In this document: piece after piece, positions 55,060 through 64,000 of the stretch | Layout: every line of letters starts with the position of its first letter | Position numbering within the stretch: the first letter of the stretch is position 1 | NCBI GenBank assembly: GCA_017656255.1 | Contig: JACDOE010000001.1 | Coordinates: forward strand, 871,205-935,204 | Direction of reading: 5' to 3' | DNA from: Bacillaceae bacterium | GTDB taxonomy: Bacteria; Bacillota; Bacilli; JACDOE01 | DNA: 64,000 nucleotides | The notes under the pieces: model-generated | Database searches by the model: none | Seen by the model: the letters and a program-made list of their open reading frames with translations, nothing else | What the model was told of the DNA's origin: nothing | Position numbers and translations under genes: made by a program

Positions 55060-58000
55060 TCAGTCATAGATCTCCACTTTGTGATCATCAAAAATATCTC
55101 CGGACACCAGTAACGTTTTCATGTCCGTGACGGTTTTTAAGCTACCATCCCAGGGCGATATTTTGGTCGCTGTGTAACGCAGCGTATAAGTTCCATCCTG
55201 TGTCGGCAGTGGGATAATCACATCCTTGCCCCAGTTATTTAGCTTTGTTGAGGTTGAGAATTCTGGTATCAAATCAATTCTCTCGTTTTCATCATTGAAA
55301 TCCCCGTCCTTGTTCCAGTCTACCTCTACAAATACATGCTGTGCTTTTCCTTCTGTATCGGCTGTTAATGTAATAGCCTGTCCAGAATGAGCCTCATACG
55401 GGTTTAAGTCTCCTGTAATTCGTAGTGGATCTTCAACGATCAGGTGCTGAATCTGCCAATCGGACCATAGTGTTGGCGATAATCCATTTGGTGACGTATC
55501 TTGAACCCGGTATTGAATGGTGTATGTGCCAACCCCATCATTTGGGAATCCAACTGCCTCAAATATTTGGATGAACGCACTGCTCATATCCTTTGGTGTT
55601 CCAGAGCCTTTCCCATAACGACCGGTATATGTCTGAGACACACCGGACTCCTGCTGTGTCACAATCAGTTCATAAGCCTGCAGCTTTTTCCCTTCCGGAT
55701 CTGTGGATCGATCGATCCATGTTAAAGGCTCGTCCGCCGGTACGGGATTAGGCGATAATACCAGGTTAGCGACCGGCTTGTTATTTCCTTCCACAACCGT
55801 TAAAGTGCGGGTGAACCAGGATGACCATTTTGGCGTAAGCTGGCTTAATGCCGGCTGGTCCTTAACCCGTAGCGCTATGTCATAGGTGCCGGTTCCAAGC
55901 GATTCAAAGCTGGTTGGCTTCCCGCTTATCCATGCTCCGCCATCCTTTCTGTATCTCCACTGCCAGGCTACAAGCGGATCGCCATCCGGATCATAGGATG
56001 TATCATGGTAGCTTACATCGACATCCTGCGGGACGGGGTTAGGGTTGACAGTAAATCTGGCAACAGGCGGCGTATTTGCCGGTATGACCTCTAACGTCTG
56101 ATAAAACGGTTCTGACCAGGCCCCATACGAATCTTTTACGGTCAGTTCGATTGAATAGGTACCGGTCTGTGAAAAAGAGACAGGTGGATGTGAACCATAG
56201 TCAACCCAATTGCCGGAGGGATGCTTTATTCTCCAGCGGTGTTGGGTGATGGTATCCCCTATGTCCGGATCATAACTTCCTGATGCATCATAGCTGGCCA
56301 CTTTTCCAACAGGAAGCGGATTGGGAAAAACCGTAAAGTGGGCCACCGGGGGTACATTGAGATTGTCAGTGCTAATTACTTTAACGTTAGGGTCCGACCA
56401 GACGCCTTCCTTATCCTGAACCCTTAAGTAAACCAAGTAGAACTTTCCGGGATTCAGGTAAGTTGGTTTTCCCGAATGCCAGGTGCTTTCAGATGCTTCT
56501 TTCCACTTCCACTCTGTTGCCACAATCCCTTTACCCGATTCAGACTCATGATCCAGATCATATGACAAGTCGTTAAAAAAAACCCTGTATCGATTCGATT
56601 CTTCTATTGTATAAAAATTAAACTGGGAGATCGGTTTGCGATGGACATAAATCCATAACGTGTCTACCGGCATATCGGACCAGAGTCGATAATTGTCGAA
56701 CCTATCATCATTTTTGGGGTTATCTTTCGCCTGAAATACGACTTCATATTTGCCTACTTTTGAAAACCTTGTAACAGGATCCGGTATAAATTGATTGTGG
56801 AAACTGGCCAATCCAAGCGAATTATCAAAGTAATTCGGATCATGCGTGTACATCCACCGGCGTTCAATCTCCGGATCGTTTTCCTGGTCAACATACGATG
56901 TTTCGTATTGAATTTCTTCATCCAAAAGAAGGTACTGAACGGGGTCCCCCTGTTTCAATTCTACCTGAGATATAATATAATCCGCGATCTGTGAGAGAGC
57001 TGTATCCATGTTGTTGTTATAGACAAACGTACCTTTTCCATCATTTTGTTCGATGATGTCTTCTGCCTGGGATTTGTTTGCGTTTGTTCCCATGACACTG
57101 AAGTGAATCTTTTCATTCAACAAACGTGAGAGAATGACGGATGACTTTTCCTGGTCGTTAAACTCAGCAAATTCTTTATCGCTGATACTAACCACAAAAC
57201 GCTGGGCATCTTCTCGCCAGTTTGGTTCTTTGAGGACTTCATCGAGTGATCTACCTGTTTTTGCTGTGATTTTTACATTTTTAAAATACCCTTTACGTTG
57301 GCTGCTGGTAAATGGGCCGTACCCGCCTTCAAGCAAGGGGTTATTGTTATCTGTGTAATTGATGACCTGAGATCCGTCTATCCATACCTTGATGTTATTA
57401 CCTTTGGCATGAATTTTTACATTGTACCAGCGTCCGACACTTCTCAAGAAAGGAATATCAATAAGTTTTATCCAACTGGAACCTACGCGTTTCCAGAGAC
57501 CTGATTGATAAGCTCCCCCACCATTAGTAATAAAAGCATAGTAACTGTATGTGTTAAGATTAGTGGGATCTGTACCGTTATGAGTCATTCGGAATGTGAA
57601 CCCAATGTTGTCATCATCAACCCAGCCCCCATCATTATCAAGCTGCGCCATATCGAATTCAATAATGGTCTCTTTGGCGTTATCTTCTTTCCAGAAACCT
57701 GTCCATCCCACATTTTGCGTCGTACCCAGCGCTTTAATGGAAGGATCATAGTGCCATTGTCCTCTATCATTCGGATAATTCTCCCAGGTGCTGAAAATAG
57801 CTTGAGCGTCTGTACTATTCGTACTGATCTTGCTTGTTGAAATCGCCTCGATCGTGCCATAGTCAATATCCATCGCAGACAGTTTGGGAATTACAATGGA
57901 ATTAATTTTGGCATTTAAGTCTTTCGTTTTAGACTCAGCCGCTTCTCCAACTGTAAAAACAATATCGACTTTCTTTCTCGGGAGTGTTGTAAAGTTGGTA

Positions 58001-60381
58001 ACCGGCTGAATGTTGATGACTTCAACTGTTGATTCGGATAATGACTTAGTTGATGTATCCCCTGTCAATTTGTCCGCTTCTGTCAGGAGTTTCGGTATCG
58101 TCGACTGGCCGAAAGATTCTTCAGCATACAAATAAATCTGGTATTTCCCTACATCCGGCACAAGAAGAGATGGTTCTGGTTCGTTGCCATCACTGAACGT
58201 GATCCAACTTTCATCAACAAATGAACCGTCATTATCGGTGTCGTAACGGTATTTCCATACCCGTTTGCTAATCACATCCTGGTCCGGTGAGTAAGACTCG
58301 TCGATGATTTCGATTTTAGCTTTCGTTCCATGAGATGGATCTCGAAGAGCCTTTTTAACCAGATAAAAATCAATGACCGGGTCCTGGTCCGGATAAATTT
58401 TAACGTCTTTTTCCACCCACTCCGACCAGTGGCCGGCACTGTTTCGTACCCGCAACCTGACCTTATAGTCACCCGGTTTTTTAAATAATAGTTTCTTGAC
58501 TTCCTGTGTGGACAGGTTGGAGCTGATTTTAATATCCTCCTCCGTGATATCGAGAGACAGGGGGATAAATTCAAACTCGTAATCGGTCATAGGAAAGACC
58601 GGTGATGTAAAGGATTCTGATCCATCAGCCACAAACAACCGGTTCTGCTTAAAATACTGGCCGAAATTCAAAATGGCGGTGGGAATGGCCGGCTGTACCT
58701 GAATCGATTCCGTGGTGCTGTCGGATAATTCATCTCCACCATGAAGACCGCCATCCGTTACGGTCAGACCGATTTCATAATCCCCTTCTTTCATAAACTG
58801 GATTTTAATATAATCCTGTGTTTCTTCATGAATGATAAAATCACTTTCGGTTAAGGGTGCGACGGGCGTTACCGTCCACTGAGCATCGGCAATGGATCCA
58901 TCTCGATCATAAGAGTCATTTTCGTAGGTGATGATGTCGCCCTGCAGTGGTTCTGAATCTCCACCTATTTTAGCTGTGGGAGGTTCGTTGGCAGCCAGGG
59001 CTCCGATTTTATGATCGGTACGATCCGTTAACCCGTCATTGTCTGTGACTGTGATACTGATGGTAATACTGCCACTGTCTTTTACTTTAAACCTAATACG
59101 GCTGTCTGATTTAGAAAGCACATCGATCTTCGAACTGGGGTAATCCCAGGAGACATCCACAATTTCACCGTCGGAGTCGTAGGAGTCGTTGGTTACGACA
59201 ATGGTATCTCCTTCAATCGCTTCTCTGGGGCCATCCAGAATAGCGATGGGGCCTTCCAGGGGAGCTGATGCGGAAATGGTATGAGTGGTAGAACCTGTAT
59301 TGCCATCATTGTCCGTGACTGTTAAACCAAAGGTGACGGATCCGGATGTATCCAGTTTGAAGGTGATCTCATCCTCGGATTTGCTTTCAACACGGACTCC
59401 GGAAGGTACGTCCCAGACACTTTTGACAATCGTACCGTCCGTATCATAGGAGTCGTTGGAAAGGGTGATGGTATCCCCTTCCTGGCCTGTGGTCGGACCA
59501 TTAATGATGGCAATCGGGTTGGCTGTGGATCCTTCGACCTGAAAGGTATAAGTGGTGGATGAGTCCGTTCTCCCGTAATAATCTGACACTTTAATCTGCA
59601 GGATGTTGGGGCCTATCTGGAGTTGGGAATACGGAATGGTATAGTCGCGGGAAATGGTGATAGCAGGAGAAGTCCTTTTTTCCCACGGATTCCATGCTTC
59701 GTAAGATTTGTTAAGCTTGCCGTTTAGATAGATTTTGTCGATCTCTTTGCGGAACCAGTAACCTTCTGTTTGATATTCATAACTGATGATGGCCGCTTCC
59801 CCTTCAGCTACGGTGGCAGATGAAGGGCTTGAGCCGTTGACGGATACATCGAGGATTTGCGGGCCGTTGGTTAAGGCATAACGAACCCAGCCGGGGTCTG
59901 CTTTCCAGTCTTTGCTGTATCCATCTCCCTTACCGCCGCTGTATTCAACGATTTCGGAGAGGTTGTAGTAGGTTTGGGTGGAATAGTTGTAAGTAATTTT
60001 GTACTTTCCTATCTTTCCTTGACTGATAAAACTTCGTATCGTGGCCGGATCTCCATTTAGTCCTCTAACCCAGTCATAGAGCACACTGGAGTGAATCAGG
60101 GGATATCCGTTATTTAAATTGATGTCTGTCCTGTAAACACCGACTGCCATTCCGATGGTGCCATTTAGATCGGTTCGGACTTCGGTGTTTTTGGAACTGG
60201 CCGGGGCTTCTGTACCATCTGGAAGAGTAATTTTTAGCTTGTCGGTACCAATTGGAAAATGAGCATTAGAATCTATCCCTGTAGCATATGAATTAGGAAG
60301 GAAAGGCTGGACAGAAATTAGTCCAGCCAATAAAGTTACAACAAGGAAGATTGAAATATATTTTTTTATTTTTGTTCTCAT
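55060..60381 (-). CDS. Giant secreted PKD-repeat protein with interrupted VWA-like domain
   Basis: About 1773 residues, exported: signal peptide (about 1-35). After a unique region (to about 285) come three classic PKD domains (about 290-375, 379-465, 469-565; each with the NDSYDxDGxI motif), further PKD-like repeats (to about 797), then a VWA-like start KVDIVFTVGEA (about 805-855), a LamG-like concanavalin domain (about 858-1045, with WTGFWKEDN and VGRWYNVKIHAKGNNIKVWIDG), the apparent second half of the VWA fold (about 1058-1140) and five more PKD-like repeats to about 1652. No sortase motif or transmembrane anchor is visible at the C-terminus. The VWA segment lacks an obvious DxSxS metal motif. 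It is the last gene of the Tad-like operon, so a surface adhesin is likely. ATG 60381 has GGGAG 9 bases upstream. Confidence 0.8.
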   Translation of the reverse strand: MRTKIKKYISIFLVVTLLAGLISVQPFLPNSYATGIDSNAHFPIGTDKLKITLPDGTEAPASSKNTEVRTDLNGTIGMAVGVYRTDINLNNGYPLIHSSVLYDWVRGLNGDPATIRSFISQGKIGKYKITYNYSTQTYYNLSEIVEYSGGKGDGYSKDWKADPGWVRYALTNGPQILDVSVNGSSPSSATVAEGEAAIISYEYQTEGYWFRKEIDKIYLNGKLNKSYEAWNPWEKRTSPAITISRDYTIPYSQLQIGPNILQIKVSDYYGRTDSSTTYTFQVEGSTANPIAIINGPTTGQEGDTITLSNDSYDTDGTIVKSVWDVPSGVRVESKSEDEITFKLDTSGSVTFGLTVTDNDGNTGSTTHTISASAPLEGPIAILDGPREAIEGDTIVVTNDSYDSDGEIVDVSWDYPSSKIDVLSKSDSRIRFKVKDSGSITISITVTDNDGLTDRTDHKIGALAANEPPTAKIGGDSEPLQGDIITYENDSYDRDGSIADAQWTVTPVAPLTESDFIIHEETQDYIKIQFMKEGDYEIGLTVTDGGLHGGDELSDSTTESIQVQPAIPTAILNFGQYFKQNRLFVADGSESFTSPVFPMTDYEFEFIPLSLDITEEDIKISSNLSTQEVKKLLFKKPGDYKVRLRVRNSAGHWSEWVEKDVKIYPDQDPVIDFYLVKKALRDPSHGTKAKIEIIDESYSPDQDVISKRVWKYRYDTDNDGSFVDESWITFSDGNEPEPSLLVPDVGKYQIYLYAEESFGQSTIPKLLTEADKLTGDTSTKSLSESTVEVINIQPVTNFTTLPRKKVDIVFTVGEAAESKTKDLNAKINSIVIPKLSAMDIDYGTIEAISTSKISTNSTDAQAIFSTWENYPNDRGQWHYDPSIKALGTTQNVGWTGFWKEDNAKETIIEFDMAQLDNDGGWVDDDNIGFTFRMTHNGTDPTNLNTYSYYAFITNGGGAYQSGLWKRVGSSWIKLIDIPFLRSVGRWYNVKIHAKGNNIKVWIDGSQVINYTDNNNPLLEGGYGPFTSSQRKGYFKNVKITAKTGRSLDEVLKEPNWREDAQRFVVSISDKEFAEFNDQEKSSVILSRLLNEKIHFSVMGTNANKSQAEDIIEQNDGKGTFVYNNNMDTALSQIADYIISQVELKQGDPVQYLLLDEEIQYETSYVDQENDPEIERRWMYTHDPNYFDNSLGLASFHNQFIPDPVTRFSKVGKYEVVFQAKDNPKNDDRFDNYRLWSDMPVDTLWIYVHRKPISQFNFYTIEESNRYRVFFNDLSYDLDHESESGKGIVATEWKWKEASESTWHSGKPTYLNPGKFYLVYLRVQDKEGVWSDPNVKVISTDNLNVPPVAHFTVFPNPLPVGKVASYDASGSYDPDIGDTITQHRWRIKHPSGNWVDYGSHPPVSFSQTGTYSIELTVKDSYGAWSEPFYQTLEVIPANTPPVARFTVNPNPVPQDVDVSYHDTSYDPDGDPLVAWQWRYRKDGGAWISGKPTSFESLGTGTYDIALRVKDQPALSQLTPKWSSWFTRTLTVVEGNNKPVANLVLSPNPVPADEPLTWIDRSTDPEGKKLQAYELIVTQQESGVSQTYTGRYGKGSGTPKDMSSAFIQIFEAVGFPNDGVGTYTIQYRVQDTSPNGLSPTLWSDWQIQHLIVEDPLRITGDLNPYEAHSGQAITLTADTEGKAQHVFVEVDWNKDGDFNDENERIDLIPEFSTSTKLNNWGKDVIIPLPTQDGTYTLRYTATKISPWDGSLKTVTDMKTLLVSGDIFDDHKVEIYD

Positions 60382-60403
60382 GATTTTCAACTCCCTATTC
60401 AGA

Positions 60404-61750
60404 CTACTTCCATACCTTTACTTCGATATTCGGAAGGTAAATATTTGCGTCAATGATAGCTATACCTCCTCTTATATCAGCTATCATAATACCAAGATAA
60501 CCTTTTGTTCCATCTGCCTCAAATTTTACCCCACCTCTACCAAATCGTTCGCCATAAAGTTCTTTAAATTCCCGATCATTACTTTCGCTCCATGAAGGAC
60601 CGTCAAAATATGTCCATTCCAGACTAATCGTATAGCCTTCCTTTACCTTAGGTAAGTACCCTGAAACAACCCCATCTTTAATATCTAAAGACTCCACCAA
60701 TTCCTGCAGAATCTGCTCCCCATACTCTTCAACCTCAATCCTGGCTTTCATATTCTCGATATATCTGACAGCATCCGTTTCAGAGATAACCTTGTTTTTA
60801 TGTGAGTCATATTCTTCACGAGTAATTATTTTATAACTCACGGCTTTTCCCCAGAGATTGTCTCTATATCCCAGGGCTTTAATAATCAGTGTCGCCGCAT
60901 CCTCCACCGTCACATCCCCATCCGGATCCACATCAACCACATCCAGAATACCGGCGGCCTGAGCCTTCTGATAATACTCCTCAGCCCAGTGTCCTTCTAC
61001 TTCCTCAACCGGCTCTGTTTCGGTATATCCCATGGCGTCAACCAGCATCTTCATAAACTCAGCCTGAGAAAACTCGGCAACATCTTCCCCTTCTACCGGT
61101 TGTGGCTGTGACTGTTCAGACAGCCTGTCCAGTGTACGCAGCACCATCACCACCGCTTCAGCCCGGGTCGCCTTTTTCTCCGGCCCAAACGTTTCATCCG
61201 GATATCCAAGTACAATGCCCAGATCATTGGCGATCTTGACATATCCTCTCCAGTCTTCATCAATGGTGTGCAGATCCTTCAAGTCACTATCTATCGCTTC
61301 CCACTTCACTCTGTTTTCAGCATCCGCTTCCATCCCCAGGGCACGAACCGTCATAACCGCGATCTCCCGGCGCGTGATGTTTTTGTTTGGTTCGAACTTC
61401 AAGCCCGGGTATTCATCTGTTTTGACGATTCCACTTCCAATGGCCGCCTGGATGTAACCTTCCGCCCAGTTGTTGTCATCCACAAAAACGGACTCATTCG
61501 CTGATTGTTGAATCTGCAGGGCAACCACCAGTGATTTGGTAAACTCGGCCCTGGTGATATTGTGATCCGGCCGGAAAGTCTGATCCGGATAGCCCTGAAT
61601 AAATCCAAGCTGAATCGCCTGATTCACCTGATTTTTGGCCCAGTGACGGTCCACATCGGATAGTTTCACTCCATTCGCCTCAACTGCCAGTCCACCTGCC
61701 AACTGGACAAACAACGCCAGAACAAGTGATAAAATCATCATTTTTTTCAT
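60404..61750 (-). CDS. S-layer homology (SLH) domain protein
   Basis: A 448-residue exported protein: signal peptide (about 1-25), three SLH repeats (about 30-75, 90-140 and 165-215) with the motifs ITRAEF, ITRREI and ATRAEAV, a fourth degenerate repeat (about 250-300, GHWAEEYYQKAQAAGI), and a C-terminal domain (about 320-448) that I do not recognise. SLH triplets bind pyruvylated secondary wall polymers, so it should sit on the cell wall. It lies between a stalk-domain protein and the giant PKD protein in one operon. GGAGGGG precedes the ATG. Confidence 0.9.
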   Translation of the reverse strand: MKKMMILSLVLALFVQLAGGLAVEANGVKLSDVDRHWAKNQVNQAIQLGFIQGYPDQTFRPDHNITRAEFTKSLVVALQIQQSANESVFVDDNNWAEGYIQAAIGSGIVKTDEYPGLKFEPNKNITRREIAVMTVRALGMEADAENRVKWEAIDSDLKDLHTIDEDWRGYVKIANDLGIVLGYPDETFGPEKKATRAEAVVMVLRTLDRLSEQSQPQPVEGEDVAEFSQAEFMKMLVDAMGYTETEPVEEVEGHWAEEYYQKAQAAGILDVVDVDPDGDVTVEDAATLIIKALGYRDNLWGKAVSYKIITREEYDSHKNKVISETDAVRYIENMKARIEVEEYGEQILQELVESLDIKDGVVSGYLPKVKEGYTISLEWTYFDGPSWSESNDREFKELYGERFGRGGVKFEADGTKGYLGIMIADIRGGIAIIDANIYLPNIEVKVWK

Positions 61751-61769
61751 TAGAATCCCCTCCACATGT

Positions 61770-62612
61770 CTAATTCTTTAAAATCGTAATCTCTTTTTTG
61801 TCCTCATCATAAAGAATGGTGTAGCCCAGTGCCTCCGCAACAAACCTCAGTGGAATATAGATTCTCCCCTGATCACGGACTGCTGAAAGTGACACCGGTT
61901 CAACTTTCCCATTCACAATAGCCGTATCTTTCCCCACAAACAGAAAAACGGAATGGAACCGATTTTGAATGGCTACCATGTCTAAATCTCCGTGATATTC
62001 AAGGTGAGCACCCAGCTCATCCAGAACGCCGCGAATCGGTACTACGGCATGTCCATCCACCATTTTTAACGGATCTCTCAAAACGTTAATTTTATGGGTT
62101 CCTCCGTCACGGCCAACAACGACCCGGGTATTATCCAGATACAGAATAACTTTACGGTTTTCTTTAGAATCATCAATTTTTAAGTCCGCATCCGATTCTT
62201 TCCGTAAATTTGTCGGAGCCAATGAATCTATTCTTCCAGAGGCAGACTCAACCAGTTCCTGATTTTCCTCATCCCAGATAAAAGAGTGTTTATACAGAAC
62301 CCCTGACGCTCCGCGAACGACCCATTCAATGTACTGGTCTTCTTCCTTTTCAAATTTAAAGGAAACTGTTTCGCCGCCCGTCCCGGAATAAATCTGGTCA
62401 ACCCCGTGGTAAAATTCAATCACATATTTGTCTTTCTCGATACCTACCAGGTCAACCTCAAACACCCCTTGATTTAATTTTGCACTGTTAATTTCAGCCA
62501 TCTCTAAAACCTGCCGGGCAAAATTGGTCTGATCTTCAGCAAAAGAAACCCCAGTAAGCAACAGGCAAAAACAAAGTGAACCGAACAACCCGGTCCGAAT
62601 TCGTTGATTCAA
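61770..62612 (-). CDS. Exported protein with copper-amine-oxidase-like stalk domain
   Basis: About 280 residues: signal peptide (about 1-25), a unique N-terminal beta-rich part (about 35-150), and a stalk domain (about 155-280) with two typical repeats ending VVPIRGVLDELGAHLEY and IYIPLRFVAEALGYTI. No catalytic residues of copper amine oxidases are expected in this domain. The start is TTG 62612 with GGAGGAGG 6 bases upstream. Fourth gene of the operon, 22 bases after the TadG-like gene. Confidence 0.8.
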   Translation of the reverse strand: MNQRIRTGLFGSLCFCLLLTGVSFAEDQTNFARQVLEMAEINSAKLNQGVFEVDLVGIEKDKYVIEFYHGVDQIYSGTGGETVSFKFEKEEDQYIEWVVRGASGVLYKHSFIWDEENQELVESASGRIDSLAPTNLRKESDADLKIDDSKENRKVILYLDNTRVVVGRDGGTHKINVLRDPLKMVDGHAVVPIRGVLDELGAHLEYHGDLDMVAIQNRFHSVFLFVGKDTAIVNGKVEPVSLSAVRDQGRIYIPLRFVAEALGYTILYDEDKKEITILKN

Positions 62613-62634
62613 CCACTCCTCCTCCAATCAGATG

Positions 62635-63201
62635 CTAGAATAGATCATTTTCAATGTTACTCAACATATCAATATCCAGATTGACAGTTTCTCCAAAGAG
62701 ACGAAACAAGGTTCTGACATTAACATTTATTCGGGAATATACTGATACCCTGTCTACCAACATGCCGTTTGGAGCTTCAACTGGAAGATCCTCAGATAAA
62801 TAAACATCAAATCGTTCAATCCGAACAGGACCTTCTATAATACTTGTATCGGTATTTATAGGAGTTAAAATAAATGGGTTTAATTCCATGTTATAGGATA
62901 AATATTTTTCAAAAGTCGCCCGACCCCGCCTGAGTCCTTCCATTCTGGGTTCATCTTTTCTATGTAAACGATAGGTTCCGTAGGCCAGCCCTTCTCGGTC
63001 CATATCTTTCCAGACAGCCATATTGGCAAAATCCAGGTCGTTTTTGACATGATGGACGGCCATATACAAATGAGCTATTTCAATTAACAAAAAGATCATC
63101 AAGCTTAAACCCAGGAGCAGGAAAACACCTAAAATGGCATTTCCGGTTCCCCGTCGATCTTTCATTAATTTTGCAATACCCCGATTATTTGAAATACTCA
63201 C
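62635..63201 (-). CDS. TadG-like pseudopilin/membrane protein
   Basis: A 188-residue bitopic protein: basic N-terminus (KLMKDRRGTGN), one membrane span (about 22-45) and an extracytoplasmic domain. The RRGTGNAILGVFLLLGLSL stretch looks like the TadE/TadG signature (RRG then hydrophobic helix). It overlaps the TadE-like gene by 17 bases. The start is GTG. Assignment as a Tad-system minor pilin rests on this pattern and the neighbouring prepilin peptidase. Confidence 0.7.
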   Translation of the reverse strand: MSISNNRGIAKLMKDRRGTGNAILGVFLLLGLSLMIFLLIEIAHLYMAVHHVKNDLDFANMAVWKDMDREGLAYGTYRLHRKDEPRMEGLRRGRATFEKYLSYNMELNPFILTPINTDTSIIEGPVRIERFDVYLSEDLPVEAPNGMLVDRVSVYSRINVNVRTLFRLFGETVNLDIDMLSNIENDLF

Positions 63202-63619
63202 GACTCACCGAACTCCTGCTTAACTCAATTTCAAACGGTTCCGAAAATGAAGAAAGAACCATTTGTTTTAACTGATAATCTGTATAATCCGTTTGATACA
63301 AAATTGTTAATTCCACTGTATTCCCATACTGAACAGGATAAGGCGTAGCACTTGAAATATGGATTCCAGACATATCAAAGTTAAATGCATTCAATCTATT
63401 TTCAATTTCCTGTTTTATTTCCGGCGTTAATCCTCCACTGGCTTCCATCTTCAGCAGAGCGGAACGATGAACATTTTCCAGGATCAACTCTTGAAAGATT
63501 ATTTTCACAGGTTGATAGAACTGGAGCAGGATAAACATTAATAGAAGAAATGTTGCTGCAAATGTAATCGCTTCAGCTGCCCCCCGGTGATCCTGCTTCC
63601 ACAATTTTATTAATCTCAT
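63185..63619 (-). CDS. TadE-like pseudopilin
   Basis: A 144-residue bitopic protein: KLWKQDHRGAAEAITFAATFLLLMFILLQFY at the N-terminus has the TadE pattern (basic residues, RGAAEA, long hydrophobic helix, about 12-35), followed by an extracytoplasmic domain. I chose ATG 63619 (AAAGGTGGGATCAC upstream); it overlaps the stop of the prepilin peptidase gene by 4 bases, showing translational coupling. Confidence 0.75.
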   Translation of the reverse strand: MRLIKLWKQDHRGAAEAITFAATFLLLMFILLQFYQPVKIIFQELILENVHRSALLKMEASGGLTPEIKQEIENRLNAFNFDMSGIHISSATPYPVQYGNTVELTILYQTDYTDYQLKQMVLSSFSEPFEIELSRSSVSREYFK

Positions 63620-64000
63620 GTGATCCCACCTTTTATTGGCCAGAGTATTTGAAGAAAAACCCCTCCTAAAAATGCGGGAGCATAGGGAACTTCCGGCTTC
63701 AGATCCCGTTCCTTCAACATATACAGTAAAAAGAGCGGCAGGCTGCATATCAAACTATAGACAAACATGTAAAACGTCCAGTCTCCTCCCATCAGTGCTC
63801 CCGCAGCCATAAGAAACTTTGAATCTCCCCCGCCCAGGGTTCTGGTTTGCCACAGAAAAAAAGAAAACAGTGCCATCAAGATAAAACCTACCAGCCAGAA
63901 CGAAGAAAAATGAAATAGGTGAAAACCACAACCTGCAAGGATTCCTCCAAACGTAAGCCAGTTCGGAATGACCCTGGACCTTAAATCAGTTGCCACCGCG
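63616..64000 (-). CDS. Type IV prepilin peptidase (TadV/CpaA-like), C-terminal part
   Basis: The gene enters from the right edge; 127 codons are visible. Aspartic-protease motifs of family A24 are present: the first Asp in ATDLRSRVIPNWLT and the second in GGGDSKF. Four or five membrane spans follow. The short size, with no N-terminal methyltransferase domain, is that of TadV/CpaA peptidases that process Flp pilins and TadE/F-type pseudopilins. Residues MATDLRS near 63996 could start a protein but the Asp would then be at residue 4, so I expect more of it outside. Confidence 0.85.
   Translation of the reverse strand, partial: AVATDLRSRVIPNWLTFGGILAGCGFHLFHFSSFWLVGFILMALFSFFLWQTRTLGGGDSKFLMAAGALMGGDWTFYMFVYSLICSLPLFLLYMLKERDLKPEVPYAPAFLGGVFLQILWPIKGGIT

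Follow-up and report, generated by a model that had tools for sequence, protein, structure and literature searches.

A predicted VWA-fold domain split by a lectin-like insert, with signs of module exchange, in a giant secreted protein encoded at a Tad-pilus locus of Bacillota

Described split and modular VWA proteins and the locus compared

The best-matching case in the literature is CpaL from the Tad pilus of Caulobacter crescentus, a TadG orthologue. In its published description, the vWA domain is built from two sections of the chain (residues 148-203 and 384-626) with a β-rich region of about 180 residues between them (PMC12607857). The same paper reports an N-terminal pilin module, a predicted intact MIDAS (D160, T162, S164, T470 and D515), an insert that gave no strong Dali matches, and a gene located outside the main pilus cluster (PMC12607857). 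In S. sanguinis, the modular pilins PilB (vWA) and PilC (concanavalin-like) are presented as binding heads of monoderm type IV filaments, the MIDAS of PilB being flanked by two arms (PMC8179133). RrgA and GBS104 are tip adhesins of covalent sortase pili in which a MIDAS is present and the arms consist of hairpins, loops and short helices, located at the MIDAS in RrgA (PMC7893114). Finally, the Kil Tad pilus of Myxococcus is described as having adaptable tips through KilN/TadG, namely the C-terminal module of a large tip protein (PMC12075869).

The window analysed here is the whole 64,000-nucleotide stretch taken from contig JACDOE010000001.1 of a Bacillaceae bacterium. An ORF list and Pfam searches place in it a giant secreted protein of 1776 residues (55060..60390, minus strand; TTG start, with an ATG at codon 4). 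Its layout comprises a Sec-type signal peptide, PKD repeats, a split VWA domain, a conserved downstream domain, further PKD repeats and a conserved C-terminal tail; the PKD matches are strong (PKD_4 1.8e-26, PKD 4e-21 in Pfam), and the signal peptide and tail were assigned by reading. Like CpaL, the protein is Tad-linked and its vWA domain is split by a β-rich insert after a first section of 56 (CpaL) versus 58 residues. Unlike CpaL, it has a Sec-type signal peptide and PKD repeats, lacks DxSxS and a pilin module, and its insert is lectin-like and changes family between relatives, CpaL being compared here by its published description. The combination of vWA and concanavalin-like modules recalls PilB and PilC; those modules, however, reside on separate pilins, whereas the giant protein, which is not a pilin, carries one such module within the other. 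With RrgA and GBS104 it shares a VWA domain with insertions in a pilus-related surface protein, but in place of such arms a whole domain is inserted here, the MIDAS is absent and there is no LPXTG signal. The idea of Tad pili customised by a module of a large protein is common to Kil, which has its module attached to a minor pilin, with no split VWA described in the passages covered (PMC12075869), whereas in the giant protein the module lies inside the VWA domain. The literature that we covered, open-licence papers on insert-bearing VWA domains and Tad tips, gave no description of the giant-protein family. That a Tad tip protein can have a split vWA is therefore already known; whole-domain exchange in a MIDAS-less vWA of a secreted non-pilin protein was not found in that open-licence literature. 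By analogy, CpaL is the closest precedent of the giant protein.

The giant gene is the last gene of a Tad-pilus operon, in which the last four genes are separated by gaps of 4-13 bp. An SLH-domain protein is encoded 13 bp upstream (60404..61765, minus strand; Pfam) and is the partner gene in several homologous loci. It is preceded on the minus strand by a protein with a copper amine oxidase N-terminal-like domain (61770..62627; Pfam), by TadF-like (62635..63201) and TadE-like (63185..63748) minor pilins, both named from position and conserved synteny with no Pfam match, and by a prepilin peptidase (TadV, 63616..63999; Pfam 1.3e-13) that runs off the window. Beyond the window the same strand continues with a Flp-like pilin, TadC, TadB, TadA, a TadZ-like protein, RcpC/CpaB and another TadZ-like protein. 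Pfam matches of the cluster are RcpC/CpaB (2.1e-11), T2SSE (1.1e-37) and two T2SSF; the Flp-like small ORF was assigned by reading, and the TadZ labels follow position and synteny, with no Pfam match.

Neither an LPXTG-type sorting signal (by eye; the C-terminus is ...LLVSGDIFDDHKVEIYD) nor an SLH anchor (by reading of its own sequence) was seen in the giant protein; a pilin-type Pfam match is likewise absent, and by reading the N-terminus looks like a normal signal peptide. A short tail of the approximate form G-x-[IV]-[FY] near the stop codon (window 55063-55105) is common to many homologues, L033, L039, L040, L042, L044-L046, L052 and L060 among them, and this conserved tail is a possible attachment or interaction signal. 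At four homologous loci (L033, L051, L052 and L054) the giant protein is represented by two consecutive secreted polypeptides, the second beginning shortly before the split VWA in L033, L052 and L054 and after it in L051.

Fold of the flanks and absence of the metal motif

Relatives were sought at several levels. The 381-residue region, searched within the family and order, matched its own genome, the sole genome covered there. Among 398 genomes of the class, 19 matched the region, several by the lectin-like part only. Also 19 of the 398 genomes matched a profile that joins the C half to the following conserved domain; the match begins within the first 8 profile positions, thus including the VWA half, in six genomes (G000, G180, G137, G051, G019 and G330), while the remaining genomes match mainly in the domain after the VWA, with no VWA half detected in most Bacilli matches. 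Genomes of family f4, such as G003, G286 and G366, carry the conserved post-VWA domain from about profile position 100, with no VWA half detected. A profile search of genome contigs gave no match with the window region alone and 22 loci, mostly from Clostridia, with alignment A2. HMMs of the N and C halves both match in 14 of these 22 loci, which shows that the split arrangement did not arise by chance; both halves were not found by HMM in L046, L052-L056, L058 and L059, of which L046 and L058 end at a contig edge. The 18 split domains considered below are the 14 HMM loci, the window, and L033, L034 and L035 from the whole genomes, with G019 outside the set; in L034 and L035 only the C half is recognised by its HMM, the position of the N half coming from alignment A1.

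Tad markers occur at 10 of these 18 loci (window, L033, L039, L040, L043, L047, L050, L051, L057 and L060), that of L057 resting on one weak match (3.4e-5), and none was found in the sequence examined around the other eight, L034 and L035 among them. Upstream of the giant gene in L044 (1365-4713) lie genes for a TraG-type ATPase and an M23 peptidase, L045 (210-2932) has ORFs that resemble them, and a MobL relaxase lies downstream in L043 (19125-20315). The gene content suggests that L044 and, by its similar ORFs, L045 are mobile-element loci; given the TraG-like and M23 genes and the relaxase of L043, some copies may travel on mobile elements.

The split region spans residues 799-1148 of the giant protein (57996 down to 56947). 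The half-HMMs and an AlphaFold2 model delimit an N half of 58 residues (57823..57996, minus strand; NFTTLPRKKVDIVFTVGEA...ISTSKIS) with the predicted elements βA-α1-βB, and a C half of 102 residues (56947..57252, minus strand; RSLDEVLKEPNWREDAQRFVVSISDKEF...DTALSQIADYII) with α-βD-α5-βE-α6-βF-α7. A conserved domain recognised by alignment and profile search adjoins the VWA (56620..56946, minus strand; RRWMYTHDPNYFDNSLG...RFDNYRLWS...VHRKPI). The first-pass annotation had proposed a VWA-like domain split by a LamG-like insertion, and the peptides that it quoted are found in the ORF at 55060-60390. The AlphaFold2 model of the split region, computed with 18 alignment rows, has a mean pLDDT of 79 and a pTM of 0.67, with blocks at the flank ends reaching 90-98. 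Its N side contains a strand (8-16), a helix (27-41) and strands (50-61) followed by a β sandwich to residue 248, and its C side a short helix, a strand (265-271), a helix, a strand (297-303), a helix, a strand (324-326) and a helix (330-347). The resulting order, βA-α1-βB, β sandwich, βD-α-βE-α6-βF-α7, agrees with the proposal that the first strands and helix precede the insert and the remaining VWA strands follow it, as do the VIA matches of homologue L043.

Because the lectin-like insert fills the fold-match lists of the window model, the lack of VWA folds in those lists is no evidence against a VWA domain, and L043, whose flanks are 46-50% identical to those of the window, was modelled for this question. 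Its model has a mean pLDDT of 61, with flank blocks mostly at 80-96 and a disordered insert of different sequence. VIA listed 50 rows for it, and every one is an integrin beta-I, a VWF A1 or an integrin I domain, with Z values of 11.7-12.7. Most of them superpose at 2.5-3.6 Å over about 147 residues, the loosest reaching 5.1 Å over 162-167, and the matches run from model residue 1-9 to 297-302, covering both flanks. Foldseek gave no match for L043 at E≤0.001; its rows begin at E 0.003 and, apart from a few unrelated ones, consist of VWA/I domains, so that the argument for VWA is carried by VIA and the element order of the AlphaFold2 model. The structure that had been anticipated for residues 795-1145, a single VWA fold drawn from both flanks with a projecting jelly roll, is thus the one predicted by AlphaFold2 and the homologue fold search.

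That the flanks are instead independent α/β pieces with no single VWA domain seems to us very improbable. Pfam VWA has no match at E≤1 in the window protein, nor in the 18 split domains, and a PF00092 search of the own genome hits three places only, all other than the giant protein; the MIDAS motif is also absent from the flanks. Against this stand the high confidence of both flanks in the window model, the VIA matches of L043 spanning both flanks on VWA/I domains, and the co-occurrence of the two halves, in conserved order, in the 14 of 22 scanned loci; independently folding flanks were set aside on the L043 matches. Joined flanks aligned to 14 VWA domains reach an hhalign score of 21.9 in register at βE-α6-βF, with an HHalign probability of only 4.8%; 200 column shuffles of the joined-flank profile gave a maximum of 18.6, all 200 being beaten. 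The sequence signal for VWA in the flanks is weak; the modelling supports with high confidence a single domain of VWA fold formed by the flanks, which lies outside the Pfam family PF00092.

In three clostridial loci (L052:7097-11338, L054:7115-11419 and L056:7181-11413) the proteins seem, by eye, to contain two split VWA domains in tandem, with a propeller-like insert in the second one. That of L052 matches an RCC1-like domain in Pfam (1.4e-21, below the model cut-off); those of L054 and L056 gave no Pfam match.

The typical DxSxS metal motif had been read as replaced, and it is indeed absent after strand A in every relative read (0 of 18 split domains). Gly occupies the first Asp position in 14 of the 18, including the window, and, by reading of the alignment, the Asp after βD is kept in 15. 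L052 keeps DYTGT at the DxSxS position.

The lectin-like insert and its counterparts in relatives

The insert (57253..57822, minus strand), annotated at first as a LamG/concanavalin-like domain of about 190 residues, does have 190 residues, a concanavalin A/LamG-like β sandwich in the AlphaFold2 model, and a Pfam match over the cut-off (3keto-disac_hyd, PF06439; 33.1 bits, cut-off 26.8). Foldseek and VIA searches against the PDB place residues 55-249 of the window model among concanavalin-like folds, with VIA Z scores of 17.2 for the lectin domain of galactocerebrosidase and 16.7 for CBM66 (2.9 Å over 164 residues).

The flanks are conserved in relatives from Bacilli and Clostridia, which carry different inserts at the same site or an insert at another loop. 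A similarity matrix was built for 17 of the 18 loci, leaving out L051, where the insert is at another loop. Flank similarity ranges from Z 1.1 to 134, falling below 5 only for L034-L044 (1.1) and L033-L049 (4.0). The inserts form blocks, with between-block Z values mostly near 0 and a maximum of 6.3 between types A and B. Type A comprises the lectin-like insert of the window and those of L060, L041, L042 and L045; type B comprises L039, L040, L034, L035 and L050; and type C is the insert of L033, composed of RCC1 repeats (PF25390 at 1.9e-32, below the model cut-off; PF13540 and PF00415 over theirs). The matrix further separates types D (L043), E (L044), F (L047 and L057), G (L048) and H (L049). 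L051 has no insert at the usual site and carries an ILEI domain (5.9e-8, over cut-off) after βD, and L049 has a second insert after βE. Global-alignment identities between different inserts (23-35%) are inflated by free end gaps, so the matrix Z values were relied on instead.

Types A and B (hhalign 85%, E 6e-6) are probably remote relatives, and types F and G (hhalign 16%) may share a weak signal; the truly unrelated inserts are therefore fewer than the type labels. The clearest pair is L057 and L048, both from Clostridia, whose N halves, C halves and 200 upstream residues share 90%, 82% and 90% identity, with inserts that have no detectable similarity (Z 1.1). In a flank tree of 16 loci (L051 and L049 left out), L047, L057 and L048 cluster together (99/99), and this group contains two insert types. 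Seven of the 13 inner branches of this tree are open, and the insert labels need 8 changes, a number as low in 24 of 200 shuffles; the tree therefore gives no order of module changes outside the supported L047/L057/L048 group. Altogether, sequence comparison argues with good confidence for module exchange at fixed flanks, and some insert types may be distant relatives. L040, L045 and L060 carry one more insert, lacking in the window, that separates VHRKPI from the following repeat (EDFEDTNYNFSFSGSW... and similar sequences), and the site after VHRKPI is a putative second insertion hotspot.

In the VWA topology, the strands βB, βD and βE each terminate at the top face, the usual place of the MIDAS. 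As the inserts follow βB, βD or βE, this topology would place all the insert sites seen on the top face.

A candidate binding head on a MIDAS-less platform

We consider it fairly probable that the giant protein offers a MIDAS-less VWA platform with the insert as an exchangeable binding head, in a PKD-rich protein on or near the Tad pilus or S-layer. The VWA domain would do without MIDAS ligand binding and serve as a rigid platform; the insert, predicted to leave the C-terminal (top) end of βB on the usual MIDAS face, would be the actual binding head, putatively for polysaccharide, and the PKD repeats would form the stalk. A place on or near the Tad pilus or S-layer is suggested for the protein, and a role as a binding head, borne on the Tad pilus or close to it, is reasonably likely. 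Relatives would change binding specificity by swapping the module and keeping the platform, the sites after βD (L051) and βE (L049) being likewise, by topology, on the top face.

Two other roles for the insert have to be weighed. It might serve a TadG/CpaL-type vWA as a fixed structural arm, used for shape or mechanosensing and not for ligand binding, as CpaL places its β-rich insert (204-384) after a vWA part of nearly equal length (148-203) (PMC12607857), and RrgA and GBS104 carry two inserted arms (PMC7893114). We judge this unlikely: the inserts belong to different domain families (lectin-like, RCC1 and ILEI), a variety more in keeping with exchange of function than with a fixed arm. Less likely again is that the insert is an enzyme, or derived from one, with the 3-keto-disaccharide hydrolase/hydratase fold, so that the protein would act on sugars. 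Its top Pfam family, over the cut-off, is 3keto-disac_hyd and 3-keto-hydratases are among its fold matches, but a binding module with this fold, CBM66, gives a slightly higher score (Z 16.7 versus 15.1), and L033 carries a propeller at the same site.

For the exchangeable binding head, a broader proposal, which we hold tentatively, is that a Tad-linked, MIDAS-less VWA in Bacillota accepts whole exchangeable binding domains, inserted only in ligand-face loops, with specificity set by module replacement. The acceptor range would then extend over lectin-like domains, an RCC1 propeller, ILEI and several inserts of unknown fold. If true, pilus-linked specificity would evolve by intradomain replacement, and not by point mutation or end fusion.

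To our knowledge, surface recognition by Gram-positive Tad pili is poorly known. With the insert, these pili would have a defined candidate head, the specificity of which can be examined for one module at a time. The relatives provide a natural series of one VWA platform with different domains, including one pair with flanks 82-90% identical and inserts unlike each other. The family also illustrates how domains of predicted VWA fold can escape the Pfam profile, since they are split and lack the metal motif.
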